DNA of 46,244 nt from an uncultured bacterium (GCA_903908595.1 CAIVSN010000126.1:1-46244), one strand, 5' to 3'; counted from the stretch's first letter, positions 5,419 through 35,858 are shown. Notes: generated by a model not told the origin, from the sequence alone. Numbers and translations are program-made.

Positions 5419-7731
5419 ATGCTCAACCGCTCCTCCCCCCTCAATAACTTCATCCCGAACCGGCAAATTCCCACCCTTAGGGAAACCGTTCAAAATGAAA
5501 TAACGAAATCCCGAAAACATCTGAGCAGCCCGCTCGGACGGGTGCTCAAATACTGGCAATGAAATCCGAAAACTCGCATCGCCGTCGGGCTCGGCCTGCT
5601 TTCCTGAGGCATGATTGCCACGGCTACCGGGGCATTCGCCGCCGCGGGCATCATCCTCGGGGCGAGGGCGGGCGTAAGCGCCCTCGGGGCATTCATGAGC
5701 GGCAAGGGGATTTACGAGCTCATACGGGGCCGGAAACCGGAGTCGGAAATGGAACGGTTGATGACGGCGGCAAAAAGCGCGGAAAACATGGAGGCGCTGG
5801 AACCGCTGATATCGGATATCGAGCGGAGATTCGGCACCGACGAACTCCGAACCCAATTGGATTTGGATCGGAAGAAACGGCGGGCTTCCGCGATCGTGGG
5901 AAACGTGATAGGGATCACTGCGGCGGGCGTTGCGGGAATACTCGGTCTCCAATGAGGCATAGACGCCCTCGGACACGGTTTGTGACCGGTATCCGAAGCC
6001 CGTGCCGAAACGCTTGCCGTCGCTCCGGTCCGGAACGTTCCCCCGTTCGATTTGGATACCGTCGCGCAAGACATCCGCCACGACCATCCGAAGCAGGGAT
6101 GGATTACCCTGGAACAGATGATCCGCCGCGTAGAGGGACTGAAAGCAGGGATCGGCTTGGATCAGAGCGAACAACTGAACGCCTTGAACGCGAGCGTTTC
6201 CCAGGCGGTGCGCGATCCGAATGGGGCGGTCGCCCAAGCGCTGAAGCTCCGGGGCTATGACTTGGCCCCGGGAGTCGATGCCGTCAGCCGGCGCCTCGGG
6301 GAAAGCGAAATCAAGGAAATCGTTGGCGAATACGTCAAACAAACGGGCCAGGGGAACGCGTTTCCCGAAGCAATGGTTTCGGGAAATAGCAGCCTTGTTT
6401 CCAAGCAAACCGCCATTCCCCTCGAAACGATTGCCCCAAGCGATGGGATGGCCATGAACACCATAGGGGGAGGGATCTTGGCCTGAAGCCTGTGATACGG
6501 GGCATACCGGTTTTGGAAAACGGGAAATAAGGAGACAGGATCGGGAAAAGGCGCTCCGCCAAGAACCGTACCGCTTGCGGTAACGGACGTTTCTCCGAAA
6601 ACGGGTACTCCTCCGGAAATGAAACCGCTTGCGAAACCGGGTATTCCCCCGGAAAAGAGTGCTCCCCCGGTGCCGAAACACGCCACAAACCTTTCGGCTC
6701 CCCTCTTTCGGCTGCCGGAATCAGGAGAAAAGACGAAACGGGATATCCACTCCCACTTTACCGAAAAATACCATTGGGAGCCGGAAGAATCGTCCGACAT
6801 TATCGACGAGAACAAGCGCATAGACGCCTATTCCGGGAAAACGCTCGGGTGAACCTACATCACCTATGTCAAATATTCGGGATCCCACGCCGTCGTGACC
6901 ATCGTTTGGCAAGACCACGGCACGAACCGGAGCCATGTCCAATCGGCCCCCATCCCCTACGGTGCCCCGCCCGATCCGACGGATCCGGAAAAGACCATCG
7001 AAACCCTGCTCGACGAACTCTACTTCGAAATGCTGGTCCGGAGGGAAAAAATCAAATTGGACGATATGAAGGAGATTCACGCGGTGAGAATTCCCAAATC
7101 CCACCTGCGGCTCATGTACGAACACATGGAACAGCCGGGGGTAGTCGAAGCCAATAACGAAGTCCTCGGATACTGGATTGTCAGCGCGTACGATATCCAT
7201 AATGGGACCCTCCCGATGGGACCAATGGACAATCCCCCGCTCTCGGATCAGATTGTCAGGACGATCGATTGCAAGCTAAAAGATACCGCTGTCAATACCA
7301 ACTACCACTATGTTCATCCGAGCGTAGTAATATGCCAGACATTGCCAGAAAAAGAAGCGGAAATGATCATGCGGGAACGAAAACGCGCATTGGATCGCCC
7401 AGGAAAGCCGAGTCTCGTCTTCACCGGTGCGAGCCGTGCACTCAATTGGCACAAGCATCCCGATTGGTTGGCAGTTCCCAGCGGAGGGGATATCACGGAA
7501 GCCATGCGGGATATCGATATCCAGTATCCCGGAGTGGAAACCTACCCGTACACCATCGCCTTACGGATCCGGGAAGACGAAATCGCCCGCCTGTCCCGCG
7601 ACCCAAAAGTATGCGTGCTCCCCAAGGCCACCTACTGATGAAGGTACAGTTACGCGTTTCGGACGTTCAATCTCATCTACGTCCAGAAAAGGAACGAAGG
7701 GGTGCGGCAACTCGATATCCATCTGAAATAG
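5419..7731 (+). CDS. Membrane-associated protein with C-terminal JAMM (deubiquitinase-like) metallopeptidase domain
   Basis: With TGA as glycine this is a single 770-residue frame ending in TAG; nine TGAs are read through, at 5560, 5605, 5953, 5983, 6484, 6493, 6850, 7636 and 7639. Residues ~54-92 and ~157-180 are Gly/Ala-rich hydrophobic segments, probably membrane-embedded. A helical part (~210-355) and a Pro-rich linker (~380-435) follow. The C-terminal domain carries the JAMM pattern HKH (678-680), seven residues, then SGGD (688-691), with Glu581 in NNEVLGYW as the likely catalytic acid. JAMM peptidases of this kind cleave ubiquitin-like proteins from targets or precursors. E2-like and E1-like genes downstream support that role. 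The start is the ATG at 5419, without a clear ribosome site. Confidence 0.8.
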
Positions 7732-7738
7732 CCGGAAG

Positions 7739-7799
7739 GAAGGATACCCAACGGAGAGTGCGAGCGCTACCGCTCTCCGTCGGGTATCCTTCGGATACC
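7739..7799 (+). promoter_or_regulatory. Long intercistronic hairpin with an alternative fold
   Basis: GAAGGATACCC (7739-7749) pairs perfectly with GGGTATCCTTC (7782-7792), and inside it ACGGAGAG pairs with CTCTCCGT. The right arm can instead form GGTATCC-TTC-GGATACC (7783-7799). The two folds exclude each other. The structure sits between the JAMM gene's stop and the next gene's AGGAGG, with no T-run, so it could be an mRNA processing or stability element, an attenuator, or a junction of an inserted block. Confidence 0.6.
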
Positions 7800-7816
7800 T
7801 GTTCATTAACATACTT

Positions 7817-7830
7817 AGGAGGATGCCATG
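7817..7830 (+). promoter_or_regulatory. Perfect Shine-Dalgarno sequence AGGAGG
   Basis: AGGAGG at 7817-7822 lies five bases before the ATG at 7828. Comparable sites precede 8354 (AGGAG), 8648 (GGAG), 9394 (AAGGA) and 9913 (AGGAG). The other starts checked in this window (HU, metG, the JAMM gene, the ABC exporter, glyS) lack such sites. Confidence 0.75.
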
Positions 7831-8337
7831 CATTCATTTTGGACCCTGTTCAAGGCCGAATTCGCGGCCGAAACCCTGATAAGGATACTGTTTGGAGGAA
7901 GATTCCCGCGATTCGTCGCGTTGTTCTTGTTGCTCATGTTCGTGGGCTGGTACGTATTGCGGGGCTTGTTCCGCATAACGTACCGGATCCTGGCATGGGT
8001 TCTGGTAACGGAAAATATGAGCGTGAGAAGCAAACTCAAAAAAGTATTCCGCGTGGGCAAGCCATACGGAGACGAAGCCAAAAAGATCCGTTTCGAAAAC
8101 GGACATTGGACACTCACCCTATCCAATCCCCGATTCCGAATGGAGGTGGTATTCGTAGAATTCCGCGTCGAAAAGAAGACGGGACGGCTGCGGATATTCG
8201 CCCTCCGGGATCAACGGATGCCTTTCGAACTCACGTACGATTGGATCGGGAGGTTCATCCCGTACGACTGTCCCATAACGATGCACGTCGATTATGCGGC
8301 CTATATGTATTCCCAACTTCGCCACAACGTTCTCTGA
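7828..8337 (+). CDS. Membrane protein of the E1/E2/JAMM locus, unknown family
   Basis: This 169-residue protein has a hydrophobic stretch at residues ~32-60, probably one or two membrane passes, followed by a ~100-residue basic, beta-rich soluble domain (NGHWTLTLSNPRF...VVFVEFRVEKK). I do not recognise the family. The start follows a perfect AGGAGG. The frame ends at TGA 8335-8337, just before AGGAG and the next ATG. If that TGA were glycine, the frame would run 256 codons to a TAA at 9106 across the next two genes in the wrong frame, so TGA seems to be the intended stop. The soluble domain is one place to look for a hidden beta-grasp modifier, but nothing visible proves it. Confidence 0.7.
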   Translation: MHSFWTLFKAEFAAETLIRILFGGRFPRFVALFLLLMFVGWYVLRGLFRITYRILAWVLVTENMSVRSKLKKVFRVGKPYGDEAKKIRFENGHWTLTLSNPRFRMEVVFVEFRVEKKTGRLRIFALRDQRMPFELTYDWIGRFIPYDCPITMHVDYAAYMYSQLRHNVL

Positions 8338-8353
8338 ACCAGGAGCCCCCGAC

Positions 8354-8644
8354 ATGAAAATCATCTTGCCACTGCTCGCCTGTCTCGTTGCCGGATGCGC
8401 CTCTACGGGCGGATACGAAACGGATGGGAACGCGTACCGGATCGAAAACGGGCTTTTGCGAGTCCGCCCTTCCGGTTACGAACCGCTCCCGATTCCGATT
8501 CCGCAAACGAATATTTTGCCGGAATCGCCGAACGACACGACGGCCGGAAAACCGGAAGAATATCCGCCCGTTTCGGCCCCGATCAAAAAATCGACGCAGC
8601 CGATCCGGAATCGGATGAAAAAAATCCTCATCCTGACGGAGTGA
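8354..8644 (+). CDS. Small lipoprotein of the E1/E2/JAMM locus
   Basis: The protein starts MKIILPLLACLVAGC, a lipoprotein signal peptide with lipobox LVAGC, so Cys15 should be lipidated and the ~80-residue mature chain tethered to the outer face of the membrane. The mature part is Pro-rich and of no known family. AGGAG lies nine bases before the ATG. The frame ends at TGA 8642, which overlaps the next gene's GGAG site. Reading that TGA as glycine would fuse this gene in frame to the next, placing a second signal peptide in mid-protein, which argues against it. Confidence 0.7.
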   Translation: MKIILPLLACLVAGCASTGGYETDGNAYRIENGLLRVRPSGYEPLPIPIPQTNILPESPNDTTAGKPEEYPPVSAPIKKSTQPIRNRMKKILILTE

Positions 8645-8647
8645 CCC

Positions 8648-9376
8648 ATGAAAACCATACGAGTACCCCGCCATACCGGAACCATGGCCAAACGGGTTCT
8701 CCCGTTTGTGCTCTGCCTCTGCGTGACGGGAACCGCCAACGCGGAAACCATCACGCAGAAAGAAGCGCTCCGCCGGGAGGCAATCCAGGTGGAAGAGCGG
8801 TTCCAAAGGAACGAAATCACGGAAGCCGCTGCAATCGAACAATTGGACGCGATTGAAAAAACCGCGAGGGAATTGAAAAAAAACCCGAATCCGATGCCCA
8901 TGGCTATCCCAAAAGGAAACCCCCGGGAACCGTCGAAAGCCGAACAGGCTATCGGGACGGTGCTGATGCGGCAAGCCGCTTTGCCAAGATTGTCCCTTTG
9001 GGAATACGTAATTCCGTTTTTCCGCCCCTTCGTTTTCGGCCTTATCATATTGGTTCTCTGTGTCATTTGCATCATTGGCTTTTTCGCAGTAGGAACCATT
9101 ATCGATAAGATATCCGATAGACTGAGGAGCAACCGCTCAACCACCACGGCATACCCCGGGAGAAGGACCCCGGCGCCACGGGCCACCATGGTGGCTCAAT
9201 CACCCATGAGACCGATCCCATTGCCACGAGCCTACTCGGAGTTATATCCCGGAAGGCCGACTACGCCACCACCAGCCACTACAAGGAGCATACCAAGAAC
9301 CCCCTACCACCACCCTGTTAACCAATCCCTGACCGGTCTTCTTCCAAGCGGCGAAGTTCCGGACTCTTACACTTGA
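8648..9376 (+). CDS. Secreted or membrane-anchored protein of the E1/E2/JAMM locus
   Basis: This frame of 242 residues has a signal-peptide-like segment ending TGTANA (start at 8648, or at the ATG at 8684), a charged helical region with EALRREAIQVEERF, one or two membrane segments (FVFGLIILVLCVICIIGFF), and a Pro/Arg/Thr-rich tail. The family is not recognised. It ends at TGA 9374; read as glycine, translation would continue 55 codons to TAA 9542, overlapping the E2 gene by about 150 bases. Together with the lipoprotein and the 169-residue protein it suggests that the locus works at the cell envelope. Confidence 0.65.
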   Translation: MKTIRVPRHTGTMAKRVLPFVLCLCVTGTANAETITQKEALRREAIQVEERFQRNEITEAAAIEQLDAIEKTARELKKNPNPMPMAIPKGNPREPSKAEQAIGTVLMRQAALPRLSLWEYVIPFFRPFVFGLIILVLCVICIIGFFAVGTIIDKISDRLRSNRSTTTAYPGRRTPAPRATMVAQSPMRPIPLPRAYSELYPGRPTTPPPATTRSIPRTPYHHPVNQSLTGLLPSGEVPDSYT

Positions 9377-9393
9377 ACCAAAGGAAAAATCAA

Positions 9394-9903
9394 ATGGATC
9401 TCAACGATTACCCAGGCTGGATTCGCCAGAATCCGCATAAATACATCGGGCGTCTCAAACTCGAAGCCCGCGAACTGTATCAAAAATTCCCCCTCATCGG
9501 GATTTACATGGACGGCGACACGATGCGTCTCGAAGGACCGGTAATCACGATGAGCGGAAACCGGTACATCCTGCGGATCGTGTATCCGCTCAGCTATCCC
9601 GCCTTGAAGCCGGATGGCTACGTGCGGGATCCCGACGTGGTCGAGTTCTGCAACCGGAACGAGAACCGCGGTCACCCGTACCACAACTACGGCGTTACCC
9701 AGCCGCACGGGCTCAAACTCTGCGTCATGGATCAGGACGATACCGTCAACAAGGGATGGACGCCAAACCAAACCGGCATCACCATCCTGGAATATTCCAT
9801 CATGTGGCTTCATGCCTACGAGTTCAAACGAGCCCGTGGCAAATGGCCGCTTCCCGAATGACATGGGAATCCTCCCGTGCCATTTTTTATCATTGCCTAT
9901 TAG
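9394..9903 (+). CDS. E2-like ubiquitin-conjugating (UBC-fold) protein
   Basis: The domain order is that of an E2: an N-terminal helix (GRLKLEARELYQKFP), a strand series with LEGPVITMSGNRYILRI, the YPLSYPALKP turn, then HGLKLCVMD with the putative catalytic Cys at residue 110, followed by GWTPNQTGITIL, matching the W-P-TI segment after the E2 active site. E2 enzymes accept a ubiquitin-like protein as thioester from E1. The ATG at 9394 follows AAGGA. The standard-code stop is TGA 9859-9861 (155 residues); reading it as glycine adds 14 residues to a TAG at 9901, which is given here. That TAG overlaps the AGGAG of the next gene, so either end is structurally acceptable. Confidence 0.85.
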
Positions 9904-9912
9904 GAGAAAATC

Positions 9913-10965
9913 ATGAATTTCAAGAAAGAAAAAGAATACCATATCCCCGGTCTCGAGGACGTAGGGACGCCGGGAAACCGGAAACCCGCCAACATCCGGG
10001 GAATGACCGAAGTCATCGACGCGTACAAAAACGGAGAAGGCTCGTACATCAATACCACCGGTACCCTTTTGACCCCGCAAGAAGTAGGACGGTCGGAAAT
10101 CGCGAACCTGTCCCGGTTGGAAAACATAACTACGACCATGGCAACCGACGACGTCAACCCCTATCTCGAACCCAACGCCCGGCGCGACACGCTCATTCCG
10201 AACCTGTCGGAAGCTCATGTTACCATCGTCGGACTCGGGGGCGGCGCCCCCATCCCCGTGGAGCTCGCGAAGTGCGGAATCAAAAGTTTCGCGCTGTTCG
10301 ACTCCGACACGCTCGATGCCGGCAATCTCATTCGGCACCCGTGCGGAGTCGACGGCGTCGGCCTGAAAAAGGTCGATGCCGTGGCGGAATACCTCATGCG
10401 CCAAACCGGCGGGAACCTCTCAATCCGCGCGTACGCCGAAGACGTGTTCACATCCGAAAACGTCAGGGCCGAAATCGCCAAAAGCGATTTGCTCATCGTG
10501 GCGACCGATACGGAATCCTCGCGCTTTTTTCTCAACGAGATCAGCGTTGAGCATTCCGTGCCGACCGTCTTCGTCGGCATGTTCGAGGGCGGTTCGGGAG
10601 GGGAAATCTTCGCGTCCGAACCCGGGCAAGGCTGCTACTGCTGCCTGGCCGAGCATTCCGGACGGAAGAAGTTCATCGAATCCTACGTCAAAGCCACCCG
10701 CAAGGGCGACTGCAGCTCGGTCCGGGACGTTTCGGCCATGCCGGGCCTCGGTATGGATCAGGGGATGCTCTGCCATATCGCGGCCCGGAAATCGCTCGAC
10801 ATCCTCCTCAAAAACAAAAAACACCAGCTGAAGCCCATCGGCAAAAGCTGGATTGCCTTCTCGATTTGCGGTATCAAAAACATACTCGCCGAATCGTTGG
10901 CCTCCCTTCAGGTGGATATCCCGAAACACCCGTCATGCACGGTGTGTTACGGGTATCCGCAATGA
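9913..10965 (+). CDS. E1-like ThiF/MoeB-family adenylyltransferase
   Basis: This 350-residue protein has the E1/ThiF nucleotide-binding fold: VTIVGLGGGAPIPVELAKCG (about residues 97-116), the acidic strand end FDSD, GNLIRHPCG, and a VGLKKVDAV motif. Cysteine pairs GCYCC and CTVC are placed as in the ThiF zinc site. Such enzymes adenylate the C-terminus of a ubiquitin-like protein and pass it to a thiol or an E2; the E2-like gene directly upstream makes a conjugation role likely. All its glycines use GGN. It ends at TGA 10963-10965, 23 bases before an intrinsic terminator. As glycine, the frame would run at least to 11943, antisense through another gene, so TGA is the designed stop. Confidence 0.9.
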   Translation: MNFKKEKEYHIPGLEDVGTPGNRKPANIRGMTEVIDAYKNGEGSYINTTGTLLTPQEVGRSEIANLSRLENITTTMATDDVNPYLEPNARRDTLIPNLSEAHVTIVGLGGGAPIPVELAKCGIKSFALFDSDTLDAGNLIRHPCGVDGVGLKKVDAVAEYLMRQTGGNLSIRAYAEDVFTSENVRAEIAKSDLLIVATDTESSRFFLNEISVEHSVPTVFVGMFEGGSGGEIFASEPGQGCYCCLAEHSGRKKFIESYVKATRKGDCSSVRDVSAMPGLGMDQGMLCHIAARKSLDILLKNKKHQLKPIGKSWIAFSICGIKNILAESLASLQVDIPKHPSCTVCYGYPQ

Positions 10966-10988: not shown

Positions 10989-11011
10989 CCCCTCTTTACG
11001 GAGGGTTTTTT
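10989..11011 (+). terminator. Intrinsic terminator of the E1/E2/JAMM locus
   Basis: CCCTC and GAGGG pair around a TTTACG loop and are followed by six T. It sits 23 bases after the E1 TGA and fixes the 3' end of the operon. Confidence 0.8.
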
Positions 11012-11030
11012 GCCGTGTGGGAATCCCGGT

Positions 11031-11130
11031 AAAACGCGAACTCCTTGTCAATTTCTGCGCTCCTCGCTGTACGTACTTGCCAGTACGTTTCGCTACGGTG
11101 CTCGAATTTGACTTCGGATTTCATCGTTTT
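11031..11130. repeat. Family A repeat, copy 1
   Basis: Runs from AAAACGCGAACTCCTTGTC to GACTTCGGATTTCATCGTTTT. The interior can form hairpins (CGTACTTGCCAGTACG). It lies between the E1 terminator and the 3' end of the UPF0489 gene. Confidence 0.8.
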
Positions 11131-11193: not shown

Positions 11194-11892
11194 CTACCGG
11201 GTTTCCTCCCAGAAAAGTTTTCTCAAAACCCCAATCGCCCGCTCCCCCGGTATGAAAAACGGGCTGGTGGAAACCGTGATAAGCGATACCTGCTTCGCGA
11301 AATGAAAAATCACCCGCTTCTTCAATTCGAAATCGATATCGTCCAACTCCTCCGCGAAGAAATCCAAATCCAGGTTGAGAATGGAATTCTTCGGCACGAT
11401 CCGGCCGGATTCCCGTATCAGGTCCTGCTCGCCTTCGATGCGGATCATTTCCCCGACCAATCCTTCCGTCATCGCCGGCTTGATATAGTTGCCCACATTG
11501 CAAGAAAAATTCGCGAATTTCCAGACTTTTTCCAAATCCGAAGCATCCTCCGAAGCGAGAATATATTCATTTTCCCACAAATCCGAATGCATGTCGATAT
11601 GTATCAAAGTAGTGCCGTTTTCCAAAAATCCCATCTCCCGAGCCCGATACCAGAAAAACAACGCATGATTGTGATTGTCGAAAATCACGGCCGGCACGCC
11701 TCAGATTTCCGTCTCTATGAAATTCTCCAAACCGTTTCACGCACGAAGCACTCCTTCGTCCAAGCACATGAACGCGATTTCCGAAGCGAGCTTCACATCG
11801 GAAATCGTCCCCCGTACCAACGGGGCTATCCGAAGCCGTTCTCGGGAATTTTCCGGAATGAATGTCCCGTTTCCTCCGTCTTCATATCCCAA
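11194..11892 (-). CDS. UPF0489-family protein (arginase-like fold)
   Basis: The UPF0489 signatures are clear: VIFDNHNHALFFW, LIHIDMHSDLW and LNLDLDFF. In this family the His/Asp clusters resemble the metal site of arginase/deacetylase folds, and some bacterial members act on arginine residues of peptides; the substrate here is unknown. Two in-frame TGAs are read as glycine (VLRAGNG and EIGGVPAVIF), both before the core motifs, so the standard code would give only a 167-residue fragment starting at 11697. The frame ends in TAG. The start is uncertain: no ATG lies near the expected N-terminus, and a TTG at 11892 is used provisionally. The open frame continues upstream into a family A repeat. 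Confidence 0.8.
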
Positions 11893-11922
11893 ATACGTGA
11901 CCGAATCGTAAGAAAAAACAGG

Positions 11923-12044
11923 GAGTCCTTCGCAAAACGATGAAATCCGAAGTCAATTTTGAGCACCGTAGTGAGGCGTACTGGCAAGTACGTCGAACGA
12001 GGCGCGGAAAAATTGACAAGGAGTTCACGTTTTGCGAAGGACTC
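11923..12044. repeat. Family A repeat, copy 2 (perfect ends)
   Basis: GAGTCCTTCGCAAAACG at the left is matched by its exact reverse complement at the right, a 17-base perfect terminal inverted repeat. The inside includes ATGAAATCCGAAGT and the hairpin GTACTGGCAAGTAC. Confidence 0.88.
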
Positions 12045-12051
12045 ATAAATT

Positions 12052-12137
12052 TTGAGCACCGTAGTGAGGCGTACTGGCAAGTACGTCGAACGAGGAGCGG
12101 AAAAATTGACAAGGAGTTCGCGTTTTGCGAAGGTCTC
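12052..12137. repeat. Family A repeat, copy 3 (truncated, tandem to copy 2)
   Basis: From TTTTGAGCACCGTAG to CGTTTTGCGAAGG it is nearly identical to copy 2 but lacks the left terminus. The tandem order suggests duplication or insertion beside copy 2. Confidence 0.85.
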
Positions 12138-18834: not shown

Positions 18835-18983
18835 GGGAATAAGCTATATCGTCAAAAATACCACAAACCTGAATTTTGGGCAAAAAATCGAGCGGGATTA
18901 TCGTCGAAAAAACGTTCTCCCGATATTTTTCATGAACCCAACCCGATTCGACTATCGAAAAACCTGGCAACCCGCGGATGTTC

Positions 18984-19267
18984 GAGAGCTCCGCAAAACG
19001 ATGAAATCCGAAGTTCATTTCGAGCACCGTAGTGAGCCGTACTGGGGTACGGTGAACGAGGAGCGGAGAAATGTATACCCAATAGGAATTGGTTTCCCGG
19101 TTTTTCCAGTCACGTATTCGGACATCTTTTATTTTTTTCTTCGGTCACTTATTCCCGATAAGCTCCCGAAAGAAGAAAAATGAAACCTGTTCCGAATCCG
19201 TAACCGTAAAATTCCGAAAACCAATTCCTATTGGGTATACAAGGAGTTCGCGTTTTGCAGAGTTCTC
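18984..19267. repeat. Family A repeat, copy 6, split by a family B insertion
   Basis: Left end GAGAGCTCCGCAAAACG and right end CGTTTTGCAGAGTTCTC. The element is intact once the family B copy at 19074-19239 and one TA are removed, and it then matches copies 2 and 7 base for base in length across the insertion point. Confidence 0.9.
19074..19239. repeat. Family B repeat, nested in family A copy 6
   Basis: TATACCCAATAGGAATTGG at the left and CCAATTCCTATTGGGTATA at the right are perfect reverse complements. The outer TA is present on both sides, consistent with TA target duplication. The orientation of the interior is opposite to copies 1 and 4. Confidence 0.92.
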
Positions 19268-24471: not shown

Positions 24472-24553
24472 TTCTCCGCTCCTCGTTCACCGTACCCCGG
24501 TACGGCTCGCTACGGTGCTCGAAATGGACTTCGGATTTCATCGTTTTGCAGGG
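24444..24553. repeat. Family A repeat, copy 7, at the tmk start
   Basis: Runs from CCCTGAAAAACGCGAACTCC to ATTTCATCGTTTTGCAGGG, with short inverted ends and an internal perfect palindrome CCGTACCCCGGTACGG. The presumed tmk start codon is inside it. Confidence 0.88.
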
Positions 24554-24602
24554 ATTTCGGTCATAAAACAAAAATAAGTAAATACGCCCGATTCGATACG
24601 CG

Positions 24603-34883: not shown

Positions 34884-35858
34884 ATGACCCCGCCCATCCT
34901 CCGAGCCACGCGCTTATGCAAAACCTTCCGAATCCCCCTCAAGTCCGAGGGATGGCGTGATATTTTCTCGCCGAAGCACGAGTCCTTCGACGCGGTAAAA
35001 AATCTCGATCTCTCCATTCGGCCCGGAGAAAAAGTCGCCTTCCTCGGCCCGAACGGCGCGGGAAAATCCACCGCCATCAAGATGTTCTGCGGCATCCTCG
35101 CTCCCAGCGGCGGGCAATTGGAAGTCTGCGGGCTCGACCCGCTGGGCGATCGGGGCGAGCTCACGTACCTGATCGGAGCGGTATTCGGCCAGGTTTCCAA
35201 ACTCTACTACCACCTCACGCCCATCGACACCTACAAGCTCCTCGGCAAGATGTACGATGTCCCGAACGAACAGCTCCGCAAGCGCCTTGATTATCTCTTC
35301 GAATCGTTCCAGATGCGAGATCTGCTCCATATTCCCGTAAGGAAGCTGTCCCTCGGGCAGCGAATGCGGGCGGAACTCGTCGCGAGCCTCATCCACAGCC
35401 CAAAAATCCTGTTTCTCGACGAACCGACCATCGGGCTCGACATGATTGCCAAAGCCAATCTCCGGGACGTTATCAACACGATCAACCGGACGGAAAACAC
35501 CACGATCCTCCTCACTTCCCACGACATCGGCGACATCGAGGAAATCTGCGACCGGGTCGTCATCATCAACCACGGTTCCGTCGTGTTCGACGGCAGCCTC
35601 CATGATCTCAAGACCGAACACGTCAAGGAAAAATACGTTTCCCTCCGGTTCGACGCGGCGACGGCCTTCAAGCCGAAACCCGATATGACCATCCTCGATT
35701 CCGACCCGTTCCGCGTGACGTTCAGCATTCCCAACCGCAAGGAAATCCTCAAGGAAACGCTCGCGCACGTCATCGAAACCTACGAAATAGAAGACATTTC
35801 CGTAACCGAACCCGATACCGAATCCATCATCAAAGGCTTCTACCAATGAGAAAATACC
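34884..35858 (+). CDS. ABC-2 type exporter ATPase
   Basis: The protein (about 324 residues) has Walker A GPNGAGKS, the Q-loop region IGAVFGQ, signature LSLGQRMRAEL, Walker B ILFLDEPTIGLD and the switch His in LLTSHD, typical of COG4586-type ATPases that energise ABC-2 permeases. With TGA as glycine the end is GFYQGENT and the stop is TAG 35856; the standard code would stop at TGA 35847. The gene overlaps the start of the first permease (ATG 35846), which implies coupled translation. The substrate is unknown. Confidence 0.93.

Follow-up and report, generated by a model that had tools for sequence, protein, structure and literature searches.

Several bacterial gene sets built around ubiquitin-type enzymes have been described. 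The Bil operon (BilABCD) unites E1, E2 and JAMM proteins with a ubiquitin-like protein, BilA, which BilC trims to Gly (PMC11354881). In the type II cyclic-oligonucleotide-based antiphage signaling system (CBASS), E1/E2 chemistry (Cap2) and a JAB protease (Cap3) operate without a beta-grasp modifier, and the cGAS/DncV-like nucleotidyltransferase (CD-NTase) is conjugated through a non-ubiquitin C-terminal Gly or Ala (PMC10097602). An E2, a ThiF-type E1 and a JAB domain also occur together, with no obvious ubiquitin gene alongside, in Chloroflexi (L163; L161, E1-JAB) and Synergistaceae (L162, a JAB-E1 fusion). Here we describe a related locus in a 46,244-nucleotide stretch of DNA, hereafter the window, from an uncultured bacterium (GCA_903908595.1, CAIVSN010000126.1:1-46244). 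It encodes a JAMM protein, three envelope proteins, an E2 and an E1 and is, judging from its use of TGA, split between two genetic codes: the JAMM gene follows the code of the host, whereas the genes for E1, E2 and the envelope proteins follow the standard code and treat TGA as a stop. As far as our literature search showed, such a split is undescribed, and the Gracilibacteria literature on Shine-Dalgarno (SD) sequences or chemotaxis, searchable for open-licence papers only, describes no such gene class.

As an enzyme set, the locus adds a variant to the bacterial ubiquitin-like systems known before, one seen to date in a single family. It resembles the Bil operon in grouping E1, E2 and JAMM genes but has envelope genes in place of a BilA-type protein. 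It shares with type II CBASS the lack of a beta-grasp modifier, but its E1 and E2 are separate, its JAMM protein is membrane-anchored, it has envelope partners and it includes no CD-NTase: family-profile searches found no match to one in any of the six locus proteins. Neither was there a PRTRC model among their NCBIfam matches. The Chloroflexi and Synergistaceae sets differ in that the JAB protein is small and soluble or fused to E1, the standard code is used throughout, the E1 is 27-35% identical and no envelope genes of the window type were seen. As to the code, the nearest likeness is with the code-11-compatible phages of Gracilibacteria and Absconditabacteria, which also avoid in-frame TGA in a host where TGA means Gly (PMC10746230); the present genes are chromosomal, conserved across genera, use TGA as a stop and are linked to a co-diverged, TGA-rich gene.

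Two genetic codes in one locus

The window is contig C126 of genome G000, whose same-locus relatives are named Ca. Gracilibacteria. The host reads TGA as Gly (genetic code 25). A tRNA with anticodon UCA, labelled SeC by ARAGORN, lies beside a tRNA-Gly, and in alignments of native G000 genes (counts for this genome come from a sample of about 0.4 Mb) TGA stood opposite Gly 103 times and opposite the next most frequent residue 10 times. Each of six genomes has a single gene of the release factor 1 (RF-1) family, the G000 copy bearing the RF1-type PxT motif, and release factor 2 (RF2) was not found in them. All native genes checked in the window stop at TAA or TAG except that of an ABC ATPase at 34884, to which a code 25 reading adds four codons.

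The JAMM gene contains nine in-frame TGA codons, and its frame stays open only when these are taken as Gly. Each of the five genes that follow (mem1 through E1) stops at TGA and has no internal TGA. For comparison, eight loci were examined in seven genomes belonging to a single Gracilibacteria family, the cassette being defined as mem1, lipoprotein, mem2, E2 (plus an extra E2-like gene), small protein and E1, with the JAMM gene counted apart. None of the 43 cassette genes has an internal TGA, over 522 Gly codons, and 14 of the 43 stop at TGA. If these stops were read through by code 25, the proteins would gain 2 to 361 residues, in most cases by running on into the gene that follows. When the share of TGA among Gly codons expected at each locus was taken from the adjacent JAMM gene, a binomial test over the six loci having one gave a joint log10 P of -77, a value that serves only as a guide because Gly sites and genomes are treated as independent. 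G000 and G001 share Gly at 47 cassette positions, none of which involves TGA, and at 38 JAMM positions, 12 of which do. Genome G011, which was covered whole, uses TGA for 76% of its Gly codons, and just 7 of its 859 called genes with at least eight Gly have none; some native G000 genes also lack internal TGA. The original prediction had recognized an E1/E2/JAMM set with envelope partners, and that part stands, but it had missed both the code 25 host and the split.

Initiation and termination signals

An SD-like motif precedes all 43 cassette genes, mostly GGAG or longer and in a few cases only AAGGA. The JAMM gene has none. AGGAG or GGAGG was found before none of 64 homology-checked native genes of G000, and in G011 AGGAG preceded 0 and GGAGG 1 of 635 native genes. 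A boxA-like site stands before the leading cassette genes; of 749 native G011 genes, 2 have one. In G006 and in some copies of G010 the site matches only approximately, and the count is descriptive because the pattern was partly chosen from the cassette sites themselves. In Escherichia coli, a boxA 6 nt before the SD mediates repression of suhB (PMC5725501). Two overlapping, possibly alternative hairpins precede mem1 in the window (7738-7828) and in L043 (8609-8712); G000 and G001 differ on both sides of the stems.

The usual 3′ tail of 16S rRNA is GGATCACCTCC. Nine genomes of the family (L181-L189) have GGACTATCTC(C) (GGACTATCTCC.. or ..CTCTTT) instead. SD pairing energy was considered as proof of foreign ribosomes and discarded, the family's own tail pairing about equally in most genomes.

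Components of the locus

The JAMM domain, the E2-like protein with Cys110 and the ThiF-type E1 claimed by the original prediction were all borne out. In the JAMM protein, Glu581, HKH678-680, S688 and D691 are in place, and the Glu, HxHP, PS and D columns of the E...HxHx7Sx2D motif are invariant in seven of seven aligned homologues. Profile similarity to JAMM structures is weak: the best PDB matches (E 0.3-0.4), all of them JAMM proteins, are to a Mov34/MPN protein and to two entries of the BRCC36 family. The membrane segments ascribed to this protein correspond to hydrophobic stretches at residues 64-82 and 156-181. Pfam gave no match for the JAMM, E2 or envelope proteins. The E2 matches the PADLOC E2 profile (E=5e-11) and the PDB profile of a solved bacterial E2 (E=8e-5), and the Cys at the catalytic position is kept in all eight main E2s. 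It is lost in two extra paralogues (L048:9445-9927 and L049:7699-8145), which with the main E2 resemble a pair of ubiquitin E2 variant (UEV) and E2. The E1 matches ThiF (PF00899, E=1e-22), and its nucleotide-binding motif GxGGG and Cys267 are invariant in seven of seven sequences; from its position, Cys267 is the putative catalytic residue. The N-terminal 80 or so amino acids of the window E1 are homologous to a separate protein of 71-84 aa in other genera, conserved at its C-terminus (..SF), which is fused to the E1 N-terminus in G000 and G001. This small protein was considered as a ubiquitin-like modifier; its structural model is poor (pLDDT 61), and the protein is part of E1 in two genomes.

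Between the JAMM and E2 genes lie the predicted lipoprotein and two membrane proteins. Mem1 has an N-terminal transmembrane segment and, like the lipoprotein and mem2, recurs beside E1 and E2 in other loci; the original prediction, which was to fall if these genes were not conserved there, passed the test that it had set itself. The three had no family match. A ubiquitin fold in mem1 was considered; its AlphaFold2 model was usable (pLDDT 83), yet found no significant PDB match. No beta-grasp protein of BilA type was seen in the cassette, in agreement with the initial impression that a clear modifier is missing. Most mem2 homologues have a C-terminal tail with a conserved G-x-[VI]-P ending (SGEVPDSYT, DGRVPVDLL, SGDVPDSFH and others).

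Table 1. Coordinates of genes and signals in the window, counted from its first nucleotide.
Feature	Position	Strand	Remarks
JAMM metalloprotease-like membrane protein	5419..7731	+	770 aa by code 25; stop TAG
JAMM active-site motif HKHP..PSGGD	7450..7491	+	residues 678-691; invariant alignment columns
Strong hairpin upstream of cassette	7738..7795	+	occurs in G001 too
boxA-like site GTTCATTAACA	7801..7811	+	5 nt before SD of mem1
SD of mem1	7817..7822	+	AGGAGG
mem1, membrane protein	7828..8337	+	C-terminal beta-rich domain; TGA stop, no internal TGA
Lipoprotein	8354..8644	+	lipobox VAGC; SD AGGAG; TGA stop
mem2	8648..9376	+	signal peptide, helical region, transmembrane segment, Pro-rich tail ending SGEVPDSYT; TGA stop
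E2-like (UBC) protein	9394..9861	+	Cys110 codon 9721-9723; TGA stop
E1-like (ThiF) protein	9913..10965	+	Cys267 codon 10711-10713; TGA stop
Intrinsic-terminator-like hairpin and T run	10989..11011	+	after E1 TGA

Distribution and age of the cassette

E2 homologues were found in 7 of 147 relatives, all of the same family, and in just 1 (G000 itself) of 380 genomes sampled throughout the phylum. The usual order is mem1, lipoprotein, mem2, E2, small protein, E1. In G006 and G010 the second E2, without the catalytic Cys, is inserted between mem2 and E2; in G010 mem1 comes last, and in G011 the JAMM gene sits between the small gene and E1. The JAMM gene adjoins the cassette in all six loci where that flank was covered. 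Locus surroundings differ between genera; G000 and G001 share neighbors, a cytidylate-kinase-like and a MutY-like gene (both assigned by eye).

JAMM and E1 distances are correlated over six genomes (r=0.92, p=0.006). Since the JAMM gene is rich in TGA, this co-divergence implies that the unit has lived in code 25 cells. Orthologues of G000 and G001 differ at 59-74% of third and 16-45% of second codon positions, indicating that the cassette proteins are under purifying selection, weakly so for the lipoprotein and mem2. G001 has TAA where the window E2 has its TGA stop. The G+C content of third codon positions (GC3) in the cassette follows that of each genome, and E1 proteins outside the relatives are only 27-35% identical. 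A phage or plasmid origin was considered and dropped, the viral, phage and plasmid collections yielding no cassette homologue.

Side observations on the locus and its genomes are as follows. A metallo-beta-lactamase-fold-like protein (fold assigned by eye) is encoded near the cassette in L045 (5661-7367) and L043 (11233-13122), the two being 32% identical; the gene is in standard-code style in G008 (SD, TGA stop) and native in G001 (in-frame TGA, no SD). A dispersed intergenic repeat translating to ..RELLVNFSAPRSTYLPVRL.. or the reverse occurs in the window at about 11030-11130, 11830-12100, 18900-19000 and 24500-24600, and another of this type lies near the RF1 gene (L002). The G000 assembly (2.4 Mb, 186 contigs) may hold more than one strain, given a size roughly double that of its relatives and a contamination estimate of 5%.

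Other TGA-free genes

The same signature is found elsewhere in these genomes. Among 147 relatives, 18 have domains of methyl-accepting chemotaxis proteins (MCPs) exceeding the curated cut-off, for the most part in TGA-free frames, and CheA was found in 1. MCP genes of G000, G008, G010 and G011 (L130, L131, L132, L133, L136, L137 and L138) are TGA-free and often TGA-terminated, several having a hairpin after the TGA stop; CheA (PF02895) is absent from these four genomes. A CheA-like match in G092 (L154) is a candidate only. MCPs without CheA would make little sense in a symbiont and would fit a motile host. G011 has about 20 further TGA-free, SD-led open reading frames (ORFs) scattered over its genome (L044, L050-L116), several of them TGA-terminated. 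They encode two MCPs, CheW, a soluble lytic transglycosylase (SLT), a protein of the phosphoribosyltransferase family with boxA, and MORN-like, small zinc-type and small secreted proteins.

A model for the cassette and its alternatives

We propose, with confidence evenly divided between acceptance and doubt, that the cassette belongs to a class of standard-code genes which an episymbiont maintains so that a standard-code partner cell can translate them. The sequence findings behind this are strong, and the step to a foreign cell is an inference from them. Ca. Gracilibacteria would thus keep on their chromosome a cassette of E1, E2, small partner and two to three envelope proteins meant for an SD-using cell, whose ribosomes and release factors would translate it. 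That cell would most likely be the bacterium on which the symbiont lives. Among the related Absconditabacteria, Vampirococcus lives on and consumes standard-code gammaproteobacteria (PMC8080830), which makes such a partner realistic. In the partner, E1 would activate a C-terminus and E2 attach it to a membrane or envelope target. The membrane-bound JAMM protein, made in the symbiont, may trim or reverse the modification or protect the symbiont; as the only component in the symbiont's code, it may have its role on the symbiont's side. Since no beta-grasp protein was found, the modifier would probably be a non-ubiquitin tail, as with the CD-NTase of type II CBASS. The mem2 tail, of a kind that a JAMM protease could trim to Gly, is the best candidate, albeit a doubtful one. 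Modification at the envelope, as first suggested, thus stays plausible, but the envelope is perhaps not that of the organism carrying the genes.

Several observations weigh against translation in a partner. TAA, which works in both codes, is the stop of 26 of the 43 cassette genes. All datasets are metagenome assemblies and the carriers number only six or seven genomes. Most cassette SDs can still pair with the 16S tail of the family itself, so that the SD by itself does not point to foreign ribosomes, and G011 has a bS21-like ORF with an SD (by eye; no Pfam match), which would allow an SD-reading mode within the cell. No transfer route was found; a type IV secretion coupling-type ATPase is matched in 10 of 10 genomes, but the matches were weak and unspecific and were not used as evidence.

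The chief rival builds on two of these objections, the pairing of the 16S tail and the bS21-like ORF: a subpopulation of SD-reading ribosomes in the symbiont itself would translate the cassette, and TGA would be shunned as a codon that this mode reads badly or at which some factor terminates. Flavobacterium (Bacteroidia) has SD-specific ribosomes that lack bS21 (PMC9976891). Such a mode leaves unexplained the 14 TGA stops in genomes with one RF-1-family gene each, as well as the presence of chemoreceptor genes of this class where there is no CheA, and we consider it unlikely. Less probable still is a code-neutral mobile cassette, passing between bacteria of code 25 and of the standard code and selected chiefly in standard-code cells, on the lines proposed for the code-11-compatible phages of Gracilibacteria. 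The TGA avoidance of the Gracilibacteria phages (PMC10746230) and the varying surroundings of the locus would suit it, but those phages use stops other than TGA, the phage, plasmid and viral collections hold no homologue, G000 and G001 have common neighbors, and a JAMM gene full of TGA travels along and has co-diverged with E1.

Recent transfer from standard-code donors, with genes not yet adapted to code 25, would also yield TGA-free, SD-led and TGA-terminated genes, and some of the other TGA-free genes of G011 (MCP, CheW) may be such imports. For the cassette we judge it highly improbable because JAMM and E1 co-diverged; the extent of third-position divergence between G000 and G001, the TAA and TGA at corresponding ends, the GC3 match to each genome and the low identity of E1 outside the relatives likewise speak against it. 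Least probable of all is an ordinary E1/E2/JAMM system of the symbiont (for example, anti-phage defense or envelope stress) with a TGA bias due to chance or expression level: such sets do exist in Chloroflexi and Synergistaceae and certain native G000 genes lack TGA, but the TGA test excludes chance, native G011 genes are TGA-rich and no checked native G000 gene has the SD motif.

Implications

Taken one step further, translation in a partner would mean that host-code genes, namely the conjugation system and the chemoreceptors and CheW without CheA, are delivered to the host and remodel its envelope and behavior. To this bacterium-to-bacterium analogue of transfer DNA (T-DNA) we give somewhat less than an even chance. 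The T-DNA of Agrobacterium consists of bacterial genes built for expression in a plant host, and its transfer is proven. The cassette is similarly written in the style and with the signals of another cell, here the standard code; its signature is the genetic code itself, and its transfer to a host is hypothetical. If the code split does reflect foreign translation, a parasitic or predatory bacterium can run its genes inside another bacterium. Genes of this kind could then be listed genome-wide from sequence, TGA use telling which cell reads the gene. Even without foreign translation, a long-inherited operon with TGA stops, in a genome where TGA means Gly and RF2 was not found, contradicts the notion that one genome has one code.

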